Position numbers and translations under genes: made by a program
Shown: positions 14,136 through 40,679 of the stretch, piece after piece
How positions within the stretch are numbered: position 1 is the stretch's first letter
Layout: each line of letters opens with the position of its first letter
Assembly: GCA_010015805.1 (NCBI GenBank)
Contig: ML978121.1
Location: 3,410,001-3,474,000, forward strand
DNA from: Rhizodiscina lignyota
Lineage: Eukaryota > Ascomycota > Dothideomycetes > Aulographales > Rhizodiscinaceae
Length of the DNA stretch: 64,000 bases
Direction: 5' to 3'
Notes under the pieces: model-generated
The model's database searches: none
What the model was told of the DNA's origin: nothing
The model's input: only the letters and a program-made list of their open reading frames with translations

Positions 14136-17100
14136 ATGTCGCTCTTTTCGACCCATTCCACCAGCGATCTAGAGTCGGCGCGAGAGACCATTGAAGGCAT
14201 TGCTAGAAAGAGGGGAATAATTAGTGACGCTTTCAGAGCACGTGCCGAAACTGAAGCGGCACAAGGTCATCAGGAATTGCTACAGTTCATTCAGGGGGCA
14301 GAAGAGAATCGAACAGATTTTTCAAGGTCACTTCAGATGTCTGTATTCAGCTTTGGTTGCGTTTGCACTGGCTCTCAATACTAAGCATCATGGTGTATCC
14401 TACAGAATATCGACCGATCTATACTCCAGCAAAGCCCGTTTCCTAATGGAAGTCATTCAAAATGCGGATGACACCCAATATCCGCCAGGCACAACTCCAA
14501 CAATTCGAATTAGCGTCGCTAAACAGCGCGTGAAGATTGAGTGCAATGAGGTTGGCTTTACTGAGCAACACATAGAAGCACTCTGCCGCGCTGGGCGGAG
14601 CTCCAAGCCTCTTGGGCAGGGCTATATAGGGGAAAAGGGCATCGGGTTCAAATCGGTTTTCAAGATTGCGAAACGAGCACACATCCGCTCGCCTCCTTTT
14701 TACTTCCAGTTGGATCAAACCCGTGAGCTTGGAATGGTCACTCCTCTCTGGGACGAGGATTACTTCAATTCCCCTGTGGAGTACCAGACTACCATAGTGC
14801 TCGACCAGATCTGCGACACGTCAACTGACTTCTCTGCAACTTTGGAACAAGACTTACGCACCCTTGATCCCGTGGTCATTCTGTTCCTTCGCCGAATCAA
14901 ACGGTTATATCTCACTCGTTATGACTCAGACCATTTCTCTCCTGACAGACTCGCATTTTCGAAGTACTTTCGGGTAGACGACGGCGCTTTCGATAATGTT
15001 GTAACCCTGGTAGACGAGGGTTCCGGTGCACGCTCCCCGTATTACAAATGGGATTTTCCGAACGTTTGGACTGGGAGTGAGCCACGTCGACCCGGTCTGG
15101 TTTCCAACCAAATTGTGCTCTCTTTTCCAGTCGAGCGATCTAGAGATTCCTGGCTCGCTAGGCCTCGGGAGCTGCTGACTTTTGCGTACCTGCCAGTGGG
15201 CAGTTTTGGATTTAAAGTATGTTGCGCCCACATATAGGCAAGTTGTGAGGCTAAAACTTCTCACAGTTCATCATTCAAGCAGATTTCCTCACAACGTCGA
15301 ATCGCCAATCTGTGGATGAGGATAATCGCTGGAACATTAACATTGCGAACGCAATTCCTCGTGCATTCGCCGGCGCTGTCCGCCATTTCAACGAAAGGCA
15401 CTCCAGTCCCACAGGCCTGGGAAAGACGTGGCCGCTTTTCCTCAACTCTGCATATCACTCTCAAAGCCGGTATTGGCGAAATATTCACGAAGGGATCTTG
15501 AACGAGCTTCGAAGCTCACACATTTTGCAAACTTGTTCTGGAAGTTATGCTTTCCCATCTTCGCTGGCATTTATGGATTGGGCCTGCGACAGTAATGGAG
15601 AACCTATGTTCGGCCAAAAGCAGGATTATGTCTCCGCGGACTACCCTCAATCTGTGCGTCCGACTCTGCGTACACTCAATGTCAAAGTTCCGGACTGGCA
15701 ATGGGTGATCGGCCATGCCAGAAATTTGATAGTTGCGGGTTGTACCTGGCAGTGGTTTTCTGATCTCGCCAAGGTGCTTCTAGCTCCCCCTGAGGCACGG
15801 TCTGGCACCAGTTATACAAGGGAACTGTGCAGGATCAATCTTGTCCCGCTAGCGGACAACAGTTGGACTACTGCACCAAATCCGCGAAATCCTGTTTACT
15901 TCCCTCAGAGCTCAGGTGTCTCCATCCCGTCCGGATTGCCCTTGACTCTGGTACATAATGGCGTTTGCGAGTATCCTCATACAATGAGCCTTTTACGCCT
16001 CCTTGGTGTGCGGGATTGTAGTGTCAGCGATGTAGTGGAGCGAATCTTCGATTATCATGACAACTTTTCCATAGCAGACCGCCAAGACATGATTGGACAT
16101 GTCAAATACCTTTTCCACGCCAGAGACCATCTGGGGAATAATAGTATGGACAGGATCCGGTTTGCACCTGAAGATATCGGACGCAACTGGCTGTTTAGAC
16201 GCAGCTGGGATATGTATATTCCAGACTTACCGGACAGCAACCTCCGCGAGCTCTTCTCCAGCTATGAAGGGGTGTTCTTTTTACATGCCGAATATTTCCA
16301 AGGACTCACTAGTTCAGAGAAGGCAGATTTTACTCGCTGGCTAAGTAGTGTCACTTCTCTTGCAACAATCCCCAGACTCAGCTTGACGACAAACGGTTTA
16401 TCGCAGATGCACGGTGATTTCCGCTGGTTGATGGACAACAAAGGCAGCGAGATTATTGGCCTTCTCCGTAAGCATTGGAGGAAATATCAGCCGCAAGCTA
16501 ACCTATCAATTCGTGGAGACCTCGAGCGCCATATTGTCTCTTGCACGAATGGCAGTCGATTGCCATTACGAGAGACATTCTTGCCTCACCCTGCGTTGAT
16601 GGAGAAGAGCCTGGACTACTGCGGCAGAGCTACATGCCCGTTTCTCAGTTTGGCGGGGCCGTGTAACGACTGGATGTTCCTTTCACAGCTCGGAGTGGGC
16701 TCAGAAGAAGACTTGGACTTTTTTCTTTGGGTTCTTAGACAGGATGCTTTTCGAAGCCGGGCTACCGTCCAGTCCGCAAAGAGACTTTACCTTGAGATCC
16801 AGTCAAGGGCGGAATATCAAAGGAATAAAGTGAAGTAAGAAACTCTTCCCAAGGCTTTTCTGGATCAGAAGTCTTCTCTGTACCTGATTGCTGACAAAGT
16901 ACCCCAGTGCTGCATTTCAACGGGATGTAATCGCAACACCGAGTGGCAATTTTGTCAGCGCGAGTAACTGCGTCTATCATGCTCCGCATGCATATTCCTC
17001 TAAGCCCTCCCTCTTCTCAATATATGGCAGTGATCTTACAGATCTATTCCAACGTGTTCTGGACATCCGATCTGCTACCGAACATGAAGTTTTTGAGCTT

Positions 17101-20026
17101 CTGCAACAGTTAAGGTCTGATCCAAGTACGACTATGTTAACGGTTGCGAACGTCTACATGTATCTCCAAAGCTATGGGACACAAAGGTAAGCAAATCGTA
17201 GCTCAAGCTCTCTAAACGTGACCTAACAGCCATTAGCACCGTCCATAATCACTTTTGCTTGTCGCTCTCCATTGCTGTTCCGTCGGACTCAGGAAGTTTG
17301 ACATGGAAGTTGCCCTTTCAATGCGTGTGGGGTGACCACGAATTCTCTCAGAATGGACTTCATCTTCGGTCCAGGATTTCGCTCCAACATATCATGGAGC
17401 GATATCTTTCAGACGCTGTATCCTTCTTCACCGGCATTTTGCGAATTCCCAATGCCGGGATTGACGACCTTTTGGGCGACCTCCGGCTGTTACAGCAAGA
17501 GCACAGTGATGATGCATCTACAATTTTCAGATTGTATGAGAGGATCACAGCACATTGTCGTAGTTCGCGTAACGAGATTAGGTAAGGGTTAGGTCCGGCT
17601 GATTCAGACAATTGTGCTGACACCGAACAGGGCTGCGTTCACGACTTCACCACTGGTTTTCCTCCGCGGTTCCAGCGGAAGTCGTGGGCAATGGCTACAA
17701 CTTAACGAATGCATTTGGAATAGGTCAAACCTTCGCAGCAAGCACGCCCTTAGCCGAACCTTGAGCCAGTATCAAACACTCTTTCGTGAGACGTTGGATG
17801 TCCCAAACGTCACATTGGAGATGTTGGTTGCAGAACTTTGCATCATCACCGCTCTCGGAGACAATGCCGCATCCAACGAGGATCAGTTTCAATATGGTAA
17901 ACGGATTTTGCGCGACATCAATGGCAACGAAGATGTTTTCAACAGCAATGACCGGCTTAGACGGGCTAAGTGTTGGCCATGCCTAACTTCAGCCGGAAGG
18001 CGAACATATCTAGGCATTGGAGAATTCTACGTCAATGACCGTCAAGATGTATTCGAGATCTTTTCCCACTCAAGATCGTTCCTCGATTTTGATTTTGACG
18101 GCTCCCGGAACTTCGTCCCCTTGCTTCGCCATTTGGGCTGCGACTTGTTCTTGTCAGAGAAGGTCACCGTGGGGACGGAAGCTTGTGAGCCACTTCAGCT
18201 TGATGAGGGCCTCGGTCAAGGATATCGAAGAAGAGCTGATGCGCTGTGCAAGTAAGTATCTATCAATAAATAAGGTACCCCCATGTCAGAGCCCCGGCTA
18301 ATTAAAGCTAGATACCTCGAGTACAAAAATGTGAATTCTCCATATGATTTGAGAATCCTGCTGGAGAATTCAACTGTGTGGTTAACCCATAACATTATAA
18401 CTCACTATTCCTTGGGAACTCCAGGGCAATCTGAGTATGTCGAGGCGACAAAAGATGAGGGAGGTTCTAGCGTGCGCGTGAGCGAGACTGCACGCTCTCA
18501 ATGGTCTCTCGAGATCTACCTCTCATCCAACAGAAATAGGCGAAATTGCGCAATGGTGACAGACTTCCCTAGACAACTTGCCATTGCTCTTGGAATTTCG
18601 CTTATTAACATCGATAATGAGCTTCATCATTTCCTTGATGTACCGGTTGAGTCGTTAGAAGAGCTACTCATTAAGAAAGGCGCCGTCGGGGGGCCTTCTT
18701 CCGCATCGAATCAAGCAGAAATCTCAGAAGCACGGGAAGCTGCTCGAGAGACTGAAGGGCTGCAGCAAACCGAAAACGCCTTGTTTACGCCCTCTTCTCT
18801 CGGGCCAGATACTCCTCTGACGGATTCCCGCGCAGAGTCTGAAGCAACTTTGGCTACGCGAGCACCTTCCGGATCCCTCGCACCTCAACCGGCACCATTT
18901 CCTCGCGAGCTACTGTCTGATCAACCTGTTCAACTCGGAGGACAGCTTTCCAGCGGAGAGATTACTTATGCCCAGCCGACACCAGATAATCAGGCGCGTG
19001 GACCCAGTGTGAGAGCAGGTATTTACCATTTTGGAAATAGAAGCCAGAATAGGGATAGACTGGAGCATTTCGCGCAGGCCGCTGATGTGGCAACTAATGC
19101 TCGAGCGTATGTCGCAACACAACCCACGAACGGATCACACGATGGCCGATCGAATGCTCGGCAAGACGCTTTTGATGTTACGGATCTGAGAGCTGCACTA
19201 GAAGATCAGCCATTCCGAGCTCACAATACCACTTCCAACGTGACAGGCGTGAATGGAGCGCGAGACGGATCTCCAACGATCGTGGCTCCACGAGCATCGG
19301 TTGTTACGCAAGAGACTCCAGTGCGGAGGCTGAGGTGGGTTCCAGACCGAAACTCTGACGAAAGAGCTCGAGATTTCGAAGTCGGATTTCTCGGCGAGCA
19401 ATTTGTGAGTTACTCTCAGAACCCCGGCAAGTCCGGCAAACTGACATGTCAACCAGGTATATACATTGCTGCACGATCGGCTTAGCCTACCCAACTTCTC
19501 TGGCGACATCAACTGGACGAGCACTTTGCGCACTCGAGCCGGCTTTAGCGCTTTTGGAAGAGAGATCTCTGATTTCACGTATCGAGATACAGAAGGTGCG
19601 CTTACGCGCTATATGCAACAGATGCGACATCCGTACCCGACGCCAGCTTGGCTCAATACTGCCTGCGACAACGGCAATGCACCGTTGTACAGGCTGGAGG
19701 TGAAAAGCACAACGTCGCAAGATCCTACGACTCAGTTCTATATGAGTGGAAACCAATACGCGTTGGTACGTGCACATACTTGTCTGATGATAAAGAAGAT
19801 ACGTGCTTGGAATAACTGACGAGAATTCCAGGCGAGGCGGCTCCAGGTCACATCAGCTGTGCCTTCTGAGATATACGCGGTCATTCGAGTTTCCGGACTG
19901 GACGCGCTCGAGGAGGGTGCTCAGCACCAGCCGGAGTGGATGGTGTACTTGGATCCGTACAGTCGCAGCGAGGAAGGGATACTGGACTTCTTTGCGCAGA
20001 CGTACACTGTTACGCCACAGCGATGA
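14136..20026 (+). CDS. Giant GHKL ATPase with C-terminal NOV (DUF3883) nuclease-like domain
   Basis: Nine exons: 14136-14326, 14406-15216, 15267-16834, 16908-17186, 17237-17581, 17631-18251, 18312-19404, 19457-19765 and 19832-20026, predicting 1,803 residues. All joins keep frame. The first intron has a weak GTCACT donor, so the first 64 residues are the least sure. The N-terminal GHKL ATPase has the N-box FLMEVIQNADD (Glu79, Asn83), a modified G1 box NEVGF (111-115) and the G2 box GYIGEKGIGFKSVF (136-149), as in sacsin and plant NO VEIN. A long middle region is helical and unassigned, and residues 1450-1600 look disordered. The C-terminal NOV domain has GEQF (Glu1634), SDFTYRD (Asp1675) and LEVKST (Glu1717, Lys1719), a pattern like PD-(D/E)XK nucleases. 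ATP-driven conformational change coupled to nucleic-acid cleavage or binding is inference. The gene is tail to tail with a C2H2 gene. Confidence 0.85.
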
Positions 20027-38181: not shown

Positions 38182-38608
38182 GGAGTTAAGGTTTATGTCG
38201 CGTTTCTATCTATTTAGCTATGTTGTAACGTGGGAAAGGCGGGCATCTCCCGCTCTTCGAGGCAAGCGAGCGCATATCTAAAAGTTCGATCCTATATTCT
38301 TTAGAGTGTATACTACAACTTCCACATTGTTGAAAAGGGTGCATGCTATATAAAAACAGAGTGCATAATTCGTAACTGTCCAGTATCGCACCCTGAAGGC
38401 TTGGTCTAATGTTTTGGCCGCCGTCTATCGCCGTACCGCGACGTACCTACCTAGGTGTAACACGCAATCAACACCACACTCCTAAATGACTTGCTTCAAT
38501 TGACGCGTAAAGCAGCGGTAGAAAGTTTTTCCCTCGTCTTTTTTGCGCTATATAAGTAATCTCTTCTTTGCTCAACCACTCTCTCCACAACAACCTCCAC
38601 CAAACACC

Positions 38609-40679
38609 ATGCCGCCCCCCGCTGGCTATTATGATCTGCAGCGCGTCCAGGACTCGAAAGAGGCCCAGGTCTCGGTAATGGGCGTTGTCGTCTCCTTCGC
38701 CCCGCCCATGAAATCGCAAGGTACCGACCTCACAATGACATTCACACTGCGAGATCCAATGTCATACGACGCGAGTGGTATCCTCCAAGGGTTGAACGTC
38801 CGGTTCTTCAGGCCAAATAAGGACGCATTACCCAAGATTACCGATGTTGGCGACGTAATTTCACTGAGGAAGATGAAAATGACCTCATATAATGGGGTAC
38901 CATTCTTGCTCAGCACCATCAGGACCGAGGCGGTCGTGTTTCCGCGCGACGCGATACCGGACCCTCTCTATATGCCGGTATATAGCACAGGAACGACGAG
39001 GATAGAGCACCGTCTCTCACTTGGAACATACGTGATAACAGTCGCGGAGCAGGTCTACGCGATCGCCCTGCGCGAGTGGACACTCCAAAACCAAGGCATC
39101 TTTCCTCCGAATGTCCCGGCGGCGCCAACAGGACCAGCGGTGGCGCCAACAGGACCAGCGCGCCGAGAGAAGTTTTCATTGCTTCAAGCTGTGGAAGACA
39201 GCAAATTCTATGATGTTGTCGCAGAGGTTGTTAAAGAGTTTCCTACGAGTCTTGGAAAGGACATCTACATCACGGACTACACTCAGAACCCCAAATTCTA
39301 CAATTACCCGGTACCAGACGCCTCGACAGACGATACTCATGGTGTCCCTGGAGACGAATACAATTACATTGGCGCGGCAAAGCGAAACTGGCCAGGTCCT
39401 TTTGGACAGCACGTTCTCTGCGTGACACTGTTCTATCCTCATACAAATGCCAACGTAAAGGTAGATGATATTGTGTACATTCGCAACCTTCACATCAAAT
39501 TGGGCAACAACAGTCAGCACCTTGAAGGTCGTCTTCACCAGGATAAGGGTCGTCCTGAACAAATTGATATCTACAGCATTAACCGTCCGGGTATCAACAA
39601 GATCAACGATTATCGGGCAGGAACCTTGAGGAGCCGCAAGAGTTCTTATTGGGAAAAGCTTGCGGCAGAGGGTTATCAGTGGGCAAAAAGTCAGATGGAC
39701 GAGCATGAAGCAAAGTTTCAGAAGAAGAAGATGGATAAGGCCGAGAAGAAGAGGGAGAAGGCCGAGAAGAAAAGGGAGAGGAAGGAGAAGAAGGCAAGGG
39801 AGGCGAGGGAAAAGGAAGGAAAGCTGGCTCAATACTCAAGCAGAGCAGAAGCAAAGCCGTCCATGGCCACAGAGGGAGCTGTCAATATGGGGACGATGCC
39901 CCTGCGCATTCAAGGCCCGAGCAATCCTCGTGGTAAGTTCACAGCAAGTCATTATTCATGTAACTACTAATGCTCCGAAGTGAAATGTGGCCACCACGAC
40001 AAACCCCTCGTCCGGGTTCACGACATTCTCCACAACCCGAATCGTACCGCTACAGAAAAGGACGGCGAAACATTCGAGTTGCCATTTATCAACATGAATT
40101 GCCGTTCCTTTGTTCGCGTCGTCGACTTCTGGCCACCAGCCATCGAGGATTTTGCCTCATCAATCGACGACCCCGCGTTCAACAATGTCTCGAAACTCAA
40201 CAATAGCAGTCAGATCTCTACCGAGCTTGACATGGAGCTGAGCCAGAGCAACAGGTGGGAGTGGTCCTTCAGGCTCCTTGTCGAAGATGCCCACCCGAAT
40301 CCTGGCGCGACAACCCCGGAATATATGCAATTACTCATTGCTGGAGAGACAGCTGATTATTTGCTTAAGCTGGATGCGGCAGAGTATGTCTTCTTGTTCA
40401 ATGCTCTCTATACCACAATTGGCTAATTTGCGACGCAGTTTGCGGCGTGACAAGGACACGTTGGGCAAGCTTAAGGAGCTCCTCTGGACTCTCTGGGGCG
40501 ACGTCGGAGAACTGAAAGACAAGCACAAGGACCACTTTAACCCGGCCGTGACTCGGCCTTCGAATCTCCCCTTCTACTGCTGCATCCAGGAATACGGAGT
40601 TGTGGATATGCAGTCCCCACTAGTGACGAAGCCGTACAAAAGAATGCATCGGATTGCCTTTACCACCATCAATACTTGA
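38609..40679 (+). CDS. POT1: Telomere end-binding protein Pot1
   Basis: Three exons: 38609-39932, 39981-40383 and 40439-40679, giving 655 residues. The N-terminal OB fold (residues 8-160) has VMGVVVSFAPPMKSQGTDLT, the Pot1 pattern of ssDNA-binding strands (TFTLRDPM, VRFFRPNKDALP, GDVISLRKMKM). A second OB fold includes KDIYITDYTQNP and VKVDDIVYIRNLHIKLG. A long Lys/Glu-rich helix (EKKREKAEKKRERKEKK) links to a C-terminal domain with VKCGHHDKPLVRVHDIL. In the family Pot1 binds the single-stranded G-rich telomeric overhang, caps the end and regulates telomerase with Tpz1/Tpp1. The ATG at 38609 is the first in frame after a TATA-like sequence (TATATAAG near 38552); the same frame is open further upstream. 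Confidence 0.9.

Follow-up and report, generated by a model that had tools for sequence, protein, structure and literature searches.

A giant fungal GHKL ATPase is homologous over its full length to TmtA, a prokaryotic defence protein, and carries a divergent NOV_C-like domain

PADLOC represents Tiamat, a prokaryotic defence system whose name and origin reportedly go back to a 2022 screen, by the protein TmtA (models PDLC03964-03972). A domain found at the C-terminus of many TmtA proteins, NOV_C (DUF3883), is termed 'a novel REase domain' in an excerpt of PMC3710099. No paper linking NO VEIN-type proteins with Tiamat is among the literature matches listed, none naming both TmtA and Tiamat was found in the literature searched, and an excerpt of PMC12881547 contains no occurrence of sacsin, Hsp90, NO VEIN or Tiamat. 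Here we describe a gene of the dothideomycete Rhizodiscina lignyota, located in a 64,000-nucleotide (nt) stretch of contig ML978121.1 (positions 3,410,001 to 3,474,000, assembly GCA_010015805.1), hereinafter the window. Judged from its sequence, the gene is a fungal full-length homologue of TmtA, with a nearest branch that is mostly NOV_C-tailed; we do not call it a member of a Tiamat system.

The homology to TmtA extends over the full length of the protein, goes beyond what an earlier note on this stretch had observed, and is the main result of this work. Whole-protein searches and alignments (Pfam, genome, PDB, PADLOC, hhalign and BLASTP) were run on a 1804-amino-acid (aa) model, which differs from the final 1803-aa model only at intron 3. 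A six-frame search of the genome reveals two further copies, on contigs C2 and C14, with models of 1614 aa and 1288 aa, respectively. Seven PADLOC TmtA models match the focal protein, with a best E value of 2.9e-66, and the best E value for the C2 paralogue is 5.1e-75. In a profile-profile comparison with hhalign, the three fungal proteins align to seven TmtA proteins over 1427 collinear columns, with a probability of 100 and an E value of 9.9e-84 (for one comparison). The middle regions alone, in which Pfam finds no named domain, align with a probability of 99.3 (E 3e-20), while 15 shuffles reach at most 0.4.

When prokaryotic genomes were scanned with the N-terminal alignment, 115 pattern matches and 19 relatives were obtained. 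The three best matches, L011 and L013 from metagenome-assembled genomes (MAGs) of Euryarchaeota and L012 from a Leptospiraceae MAG, are 1533-1626 aa long and match the TmtA model almost end to end (489-515 bits). BLASTP against 41 prokaryotic relatives places L030 at the top, with 24% identity over 1012 columns (E 5e-55); the duplicates L031, L032, L038 and L055 were removed ahead of this search, the 44-row tree, the NOV_C and full-length profiles and the tail hidden Markov model (HMM). In an ATPase-region tree of 22 rows, the three fungal proteins stand together and adjoin a TmtA clade (94/93). In a midpoint-rooted tree of 44 rows, in which the fungal trio are the only eukaryotes and the focal branch is long, the trio is sister to a nine-row TmtA clade (93/88). 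Six of these nine rows have NOV_C tails, one (L040) has an HNH-like tail and two (L039 and L044) have unclassified tails. The tail of L040, inside the clade adjoining the fungal proteins, is HNH_2-like (E 3.8e-4; 20.7 bits, just below the cut-off of 21), while its core is 47% identical over 1188 columns to that of the NOV_C-tailed L030, indicating domain exchange. L039, an archaeal gene of TmtA type, has an in-frame TGA within its match to the TmtA model.

The earlier note had labelled the C-terminal domain DUF3883/NOV, a label that profile-profile comparison upholds and single-sequence search does not. The three fungal domains match nine prokaryotic NOV_C domains with a probability of 97.9 and an E value of 2.1e-12 (again for one comparison), and the probability is 95.0 with only four prokaryotic domains. 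Sixty column shuffles give at most 0.3, and tails of HNH type and NucS type give 0.0. A chance motif is rejected by the shuffle controls, both here and for the middle region. Searched as a single sequence with Pfam NOV_C, on the other hand, the focal domain obtains an E value of 0.23 and 12.0 bits, under the cut-off of 22.1. PF13020 has no match when the genome is scanned in six frames, and an HMM of four prokaryotic NOV_C sequences has no match to the fungal proteins at E 10. In a sequence search of PDB, the full protein has no match at E 1 and the NOV_C domain has only weak matches, to unrelated proteins.

The nuclease-like pattern that had been proposed for this domain is present as E..D..ExK..Q, namely E1634, D1675, E1717, K1719 and Q1736. 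Conservation of these residues was read from alignment A9 (11 rows, three fungal and eight prokaryotic) and alignment A3 (three fungal rows); alignment A6, which used focal exon 8 alone, was poor and was left out. The fungal copies bear a long insert ahead of ExK. D1675 is likely the counterpart of the Asp in the prokaryotic HDI/YDF motif. We infer that the NOV_C-like domain may adopt a PD-(D/E)XK nuclease fold and cut nucleic acid.

At the N-terminus, exon 2 alone scores 61.4 bits on NCBIfam P_loop_sacsin (sacsin N-terminal ATP-binding-like; cut-off 50). On Pfam SACS (PF25794; cut-off 32.8), the focal protein scores below the cut-off with 27.9, whereas the N-terminal part of the C2 paralogue scores above it with 39.8. 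A profile of the three N-termini matches structures of Hsp75, Hsp83, HtpG and sacsin with E values of 1.9e-5 to 5.4e-5, the best being 1.9e-5 for an Hsp90-family structure and 4.2e-5 for a sacsin structure. The GHKL/Hsp90-sacsin signature is complete, with catalytic Glu, N-box, G1 box and G2 box all present, and the previous description of a sacsin/NO VEIN-like ATPase with intact N-box and G2 box holds at E79, N83, D86, G139, G142, G144 and F145. According to an excerpt of PMC9880540, the Hsp90 equivalents of the ATP-site residues are E33, N37, D40, D79, M84, G118, G121, G123 and F124; Hsp90 D79 is Asn in all three sacsin modules, and Hsp90 M84 is Phe in sacsin. Because sacsin has both changes, the Asn that replaces Asp and the Phe that replaces Met in the focal G1 box are no argument against ATP use. 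R347 is invariant across the three paralogues, a similar NRED/SRED motif occurs in many prokaryotic relatives, and the residue may be the counterpart of the Hsp90/sacsin catalytic Arg. A plain sacsin orthologue was considered and rejected: among the sacsin hallmarks (three modules, DnaJ and HEPN), Pfam at E up to 1 returns a single SACS match, under its cut-off, and no other family.

The tails of the 19 prokaryotic relatives differ. Four are NOV_C, five are CxxC..CxxC zinc/HNH-like, two are NucS_C and one is a superfamily-1 helicase; five have no assigned family and two are incomplete (Table 1). L024 and L025 are sacsin-like bacterial proteins of ~2500 aa whose C-terminus looks transglutaminase-like by eye.

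Prokaryotic relatives adjoin type III restriction, Wadjet-like, HerA or Qat genes. All five neighbours tested singly at L011 match defence genes (a GajB/UvrD-like helicase, a type III methylase, a type III restriction subunit and two JetC pieces), as do two of the three tested at L013 (REase_III and HerA). Of ten nearby genes chosen as a second set, seven match defence models. On plasmid pSULKU01 of Sulfuricurvum kujiense, a 1006-aa gene combining sacsin ATPase and DUF3883 (L074:8911-11931) sits after a NERD-domain gene and directly upstream of qatABCD. A bulk scan with PADLOC at E 1e-20 returned 99 models from 110 flanking open reading frames (ORFs) against 33 models from 109 control ORFs, figures that count redundant PADLOC models and not genes. 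The flanking set covers 12 of the 19 loci and 110 of 123 ORFs (L026 and L027 were left out because of size; L017, L018, L021, L024 and L025 were not taken). The control set comprises 109 of 215 ORFs from the relatives' own genomes (a random 110 less one ORF of ~4,300 aa), and some of its stretches share contigs with the relatives. The link to prokaryotic genome defence at which the earlier note had guessed is thus stronger than supposed, in view of the full-length TmtA homology, the defence-gene neighbours of several relatives and the differing tails.

At four loci (L014:2518-5637, L015:6808-9936, L026:575-4141 and L029:4476-8147), all of them CxxC..CxxC-tailed, the gene immediately upstream of the sacsin-like one encodes a DrmD-like SNF2 helicase, which suggests that the helicase and the CxxC..CxxC-tailed sacsin-like gene may form a two-gene system.

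The distribution of TmtA-type matches at E 1e-30, many of which span the ATPase part alone, is patchy: 5 of 296 genomes in the phylum of L012, 23 of 294 in that of L011 and 30 of 84 in that of L022, with none in the 14 named control genomes. Viral contigs yielded no relatives with the ATPase alignment (38 stretches) or with the NOV_C alignment (42 stretches). With the N-terminus of the C2 paralogue as query, 1 of 50,697 phage records (a partial match) and 5 of 72,556 plasmids were found.

The spliced model of the focal gene starts at the ATG at 14136, ends with the stop codon at 20024-20026 and contains eight GT-AG introns of 49-79 nt each. In the 1803-aa model, intron 3 has the stronger donor, and its position and phase are as in the paralogues. 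This model reproduces the coordinates, the length of 1803 aa and the E1717/K1719 numbering that had been given before. N-terminal identity to the C2 copy is 33% for the focal protein and 56% for the C14 protein. All six introns in either paralogue pair with focal introns of equal phase, at most 3 alignment columns off, and the three copies therefore derive from an intron-bearing ancestor. The C14 paralogue (L010:2150-6360) is missing ~375 middle-region residues (16 residues vs 391 in C2), with its frame intact.

The genome comprises 33.4 Mb in 29 contigs; the contig that carries the focal gene is 4.063 Mb long, with the gene at ~3.424 Mb. Ten window ORFs or exons, a subset of the window genes, were scanned for families. 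The recognised neighbours are a C2H2 finger, MAP65/ASE1, GH39, importin-alpha-type ARM repeats, POT1, RasGEF and an M20 peptidase; three of the ten have no family match. The adjacent C2H2 gene had been offered as a functional hint, which we reject and give no weight, the other recognised neighbours being ordinary. The POT1 telomere-protein gene, identified by Pfam at 38522-39967 of the window, occupies a contig-interior position. Bacterial contamination is rejected because the gene has eight introns, six of them common to both paralogues, and ordinary eukaryotic neighbours. Short introns and the gene content fit a fungal origin.

Table 1. Features of the focal gene (window positions) and of the loci of its prokaryotic relatives
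Feature	Position or locus	Strand	Basis or remark
Whole coding region	14136..20026	+	nine exons, 1803 aa; spliced translation stop-free, GT-AG introns
Exons 1-9	14136-14326, 14406-15216, 15267-16834, 16908-17186, 17237-17581, 17631-18251, 18312-19404, 19457-19765, 19832-20026	+	
Sacsin-like ATP-binding module, aa 65-334, exon 2	14407..15216	+	NCBIfam P_loop_sacsin; three-paralogue profile vs PDB structures
N-box EVIQNADD: E79 (catalytic Glu), N83, D86	14449..14472	+	residue mapping to Hsp90/sacsin (excerpt of PMC9880540)
G1 box NEVGF: N111, F115	14545..14559	+	Asp-to-Asn form, tabulated for sacsin too (excerpt of PMC9880540)
G2 box GEKGIGF: G139, G142, G144, F145	14629..14649	+	
R347 in 'SNRQS'	15303..15305	+	candidate Hsp90-type catalytic-loop Arg
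Long middle region, ~aa 348-1400, introns included	15306..18700	+	aligns to TmtA middle region
Divergent NOV_C-like domain, ~aa 1626-1803, exons 7-9	19372..20023	+	hhalign vs nine prokaryotic NOV_C domains
E1634 of GE motif	19396..19398	+	invariant in A3 (3 rows) and A9 (11 rows)
D1675, candidate metal-binding Asp, tentative	19571..19573	+	invariant in three fungal copies
E1717-x-K1719, ExK motif	19697..19705	+	invariant in 11/11 rows of A9
Q1736, Gln after ExK strand	19754..19756	+	invariant in three fungal copies; Q or E in 8 prokaryotic rows
NOV_C tail	L011, L012, L017		Pfam
NOV_C tail	L013		HMM
CxxC..CxxC zinc/HNH-like tail	L014, L015, L018, L026, L029		pattern; no Pfam HNH match
NucS_C nuclease-domain tail, Poribacteria sacsin-like proteins	L022:9727-13902, L023:9914-14260		
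Superfamily-1 helicase tail (AAA_11/AAA_12) on sacsin-like ATPase	L028:4676-9769		Pfam
Tail without assigned family	L016, L019, L020, L024, L025		
C-terminus incomplete	L021, L027		
DrmD-like SNF2 helicase, adjoining	L014, L015, L026, L029		
Type IIG enzyme, nearby	L016		
MkoA-like, nearby	L019, L020		

In prokaryotes, one platform of ATPase plus middle region carries varied nuclease-like or helicase tails, which is the pattern expected when a sensor is coupled to an effector, and the exchange of C-terminal domains argues internally for the NOV_C tail as the effector. Homology predicts that in the fungal protein an ATP-dependent change of shape drives a NOV_C effector. The reading that we favour, and to which we give an even chance, is that this TmtA homologue with a divergent NOV_C nuclease-like domain may act in nucleic-acid surveillance or defence under ATP gating. 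In the corresponding mechanism, whose trigger, gating, cutting and role in fungal defence or quality control are all inferred, the protein would meet foreign or aberrant DNA, RNA or nucleoprotein; upon this encounter, the ATPase of Hsp90/sacsin type would change shape together with the long middle region; the shape change would release or position the NOV_C domain; and the NOV_C domain would then cut nucleic acid. A bolder version, possible but doubtful, is that fungi keep a working Tiamat, in which an ATP-gated NOV_C nuclease senses viral, transposon or other foreign nucleic acid; if so, the NO VEIN-type proteins of fungi and plants would represent eukaryotic offshoots of an immune family from prokaryotes, some of them still immune and others now developmental.

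Several observations weigh against a surveillance or defence role. The focal gene lies ~630 kb from the contig end among ordinary genes, and the ten window ORFs or exons that were scanned include no defence gene. Neither of the two tested neighbours of L012 matched defence models, nor did the chosen nearby gene at L022, L023 and L028 (3 of 10). Defence genes occurred in the control regions too, in the form of a CRISPR-Cas locus and a type II methylase. The clade adjoining the fungal proteins excludes three relatives that bear NOV_C (L017, L034 and L046), and NOV_C alone is therefore no marker of that branch. The aligners do not match D1675 to the Asp of the prokaryotic HDI/YDF motif. The anti-phage activity of TmtA is taken here from its PADLOC label. 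Finally, the two old intron-sharing paralogues would also fit a domesticated role, and plant NO VEIN has a developmental role, being described in an excerpt of PMC7260716 as a plant-specific nuclear factor in leaf vascular development.

These last points lead to the alternative of a domesticated nuclear regulator of NO VEIN type, with the same ancestry and a function in development, chromatin or transcription, in which NOV_C would bind nucleic acid instead of cutting it and the ATP-driven shape change would be the main activity. The ordinary chromosomal setting, the old paralogues and the divergence of NOV_C past the Pfam cut-off agree with it, but GE, ExK and the ATP-site residues are retained in three paralogues, and a domain that only binds is not expected to need GE and ExK; we consider this alternative somewhat unlikely. 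The N-terminal likeness to sacsin and Hsp90 could also indicate a sacsin-like chaperone working in protein quality control, in which the C-terminal domain is incidental. This is very improbable, since Pfam at E up to 1 finds neither a second sacsin module nor any DnaJ, HEPN or ubiquitin-like domain, and the full-length relatives found are TmtA proteins. A nuclease that targets fungal DNA, unpaired or unmodified, instead of viruses, either restriction-like or in meiotic or silencing quality control, is improbable as well: several prokaryotic relatives adjoin restriction-modification genes and filamentous fungi have several genome-defence pathways, but no methylase or SNF2 gene is present among the ten scanned window ORFs or exons.

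If the surveillance or defence reading is true, poorly understood giant proteins of fungi, along with plant NO VEIN through its family name, would gain a Tiamat ancestry, eukaryotes would have retained one more prokaryotic immune family, and the mechanism would be testable via two residues. A fungal role in immunity or in DNA/RNA surveillance, as predicted here, thereby becomes a testable proposition.

Compared with known systems, the focal protein is closest to TmtA, with which it shares the N-terminal sacsin-like ATPase, the long middle region, the C-terminal NOV_C present in many members and 1427 collinear columns. It differs from TmtA in being fungal, in having eight introns, in being ~24-34% identical to the best prokaryotic matches, in the long insert preceding ExK in the fungal NOV_C and in the lack of recognised defence neighbours (ten window ORFs or exons). 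With plant NO VEIN (PF13020 NOV_C), it shares the GE and ExK motifs and what we take to be the same design, ATPase plus NOV_C; relative to the NOV_C family (PF13020), the focal fungal domain stays under the Pfam cut-off as a single sequence. The ATP-binding module with Asn replacing the G1 Asp is common to sacsin (SACS, PF25794) and the focal protein, whereas the latter has one module instead of three, no DnaJ or HEPN found, and a nuclease-like tail. The C-terminal domain belongs to the same family as the DUF3883 REase domain carried by an SNF2 helicase in bacterial restriction operons, as described in the excerpt of PMC3710099, but its fusion partner here is a GHKL ATPase instead of a helicase.

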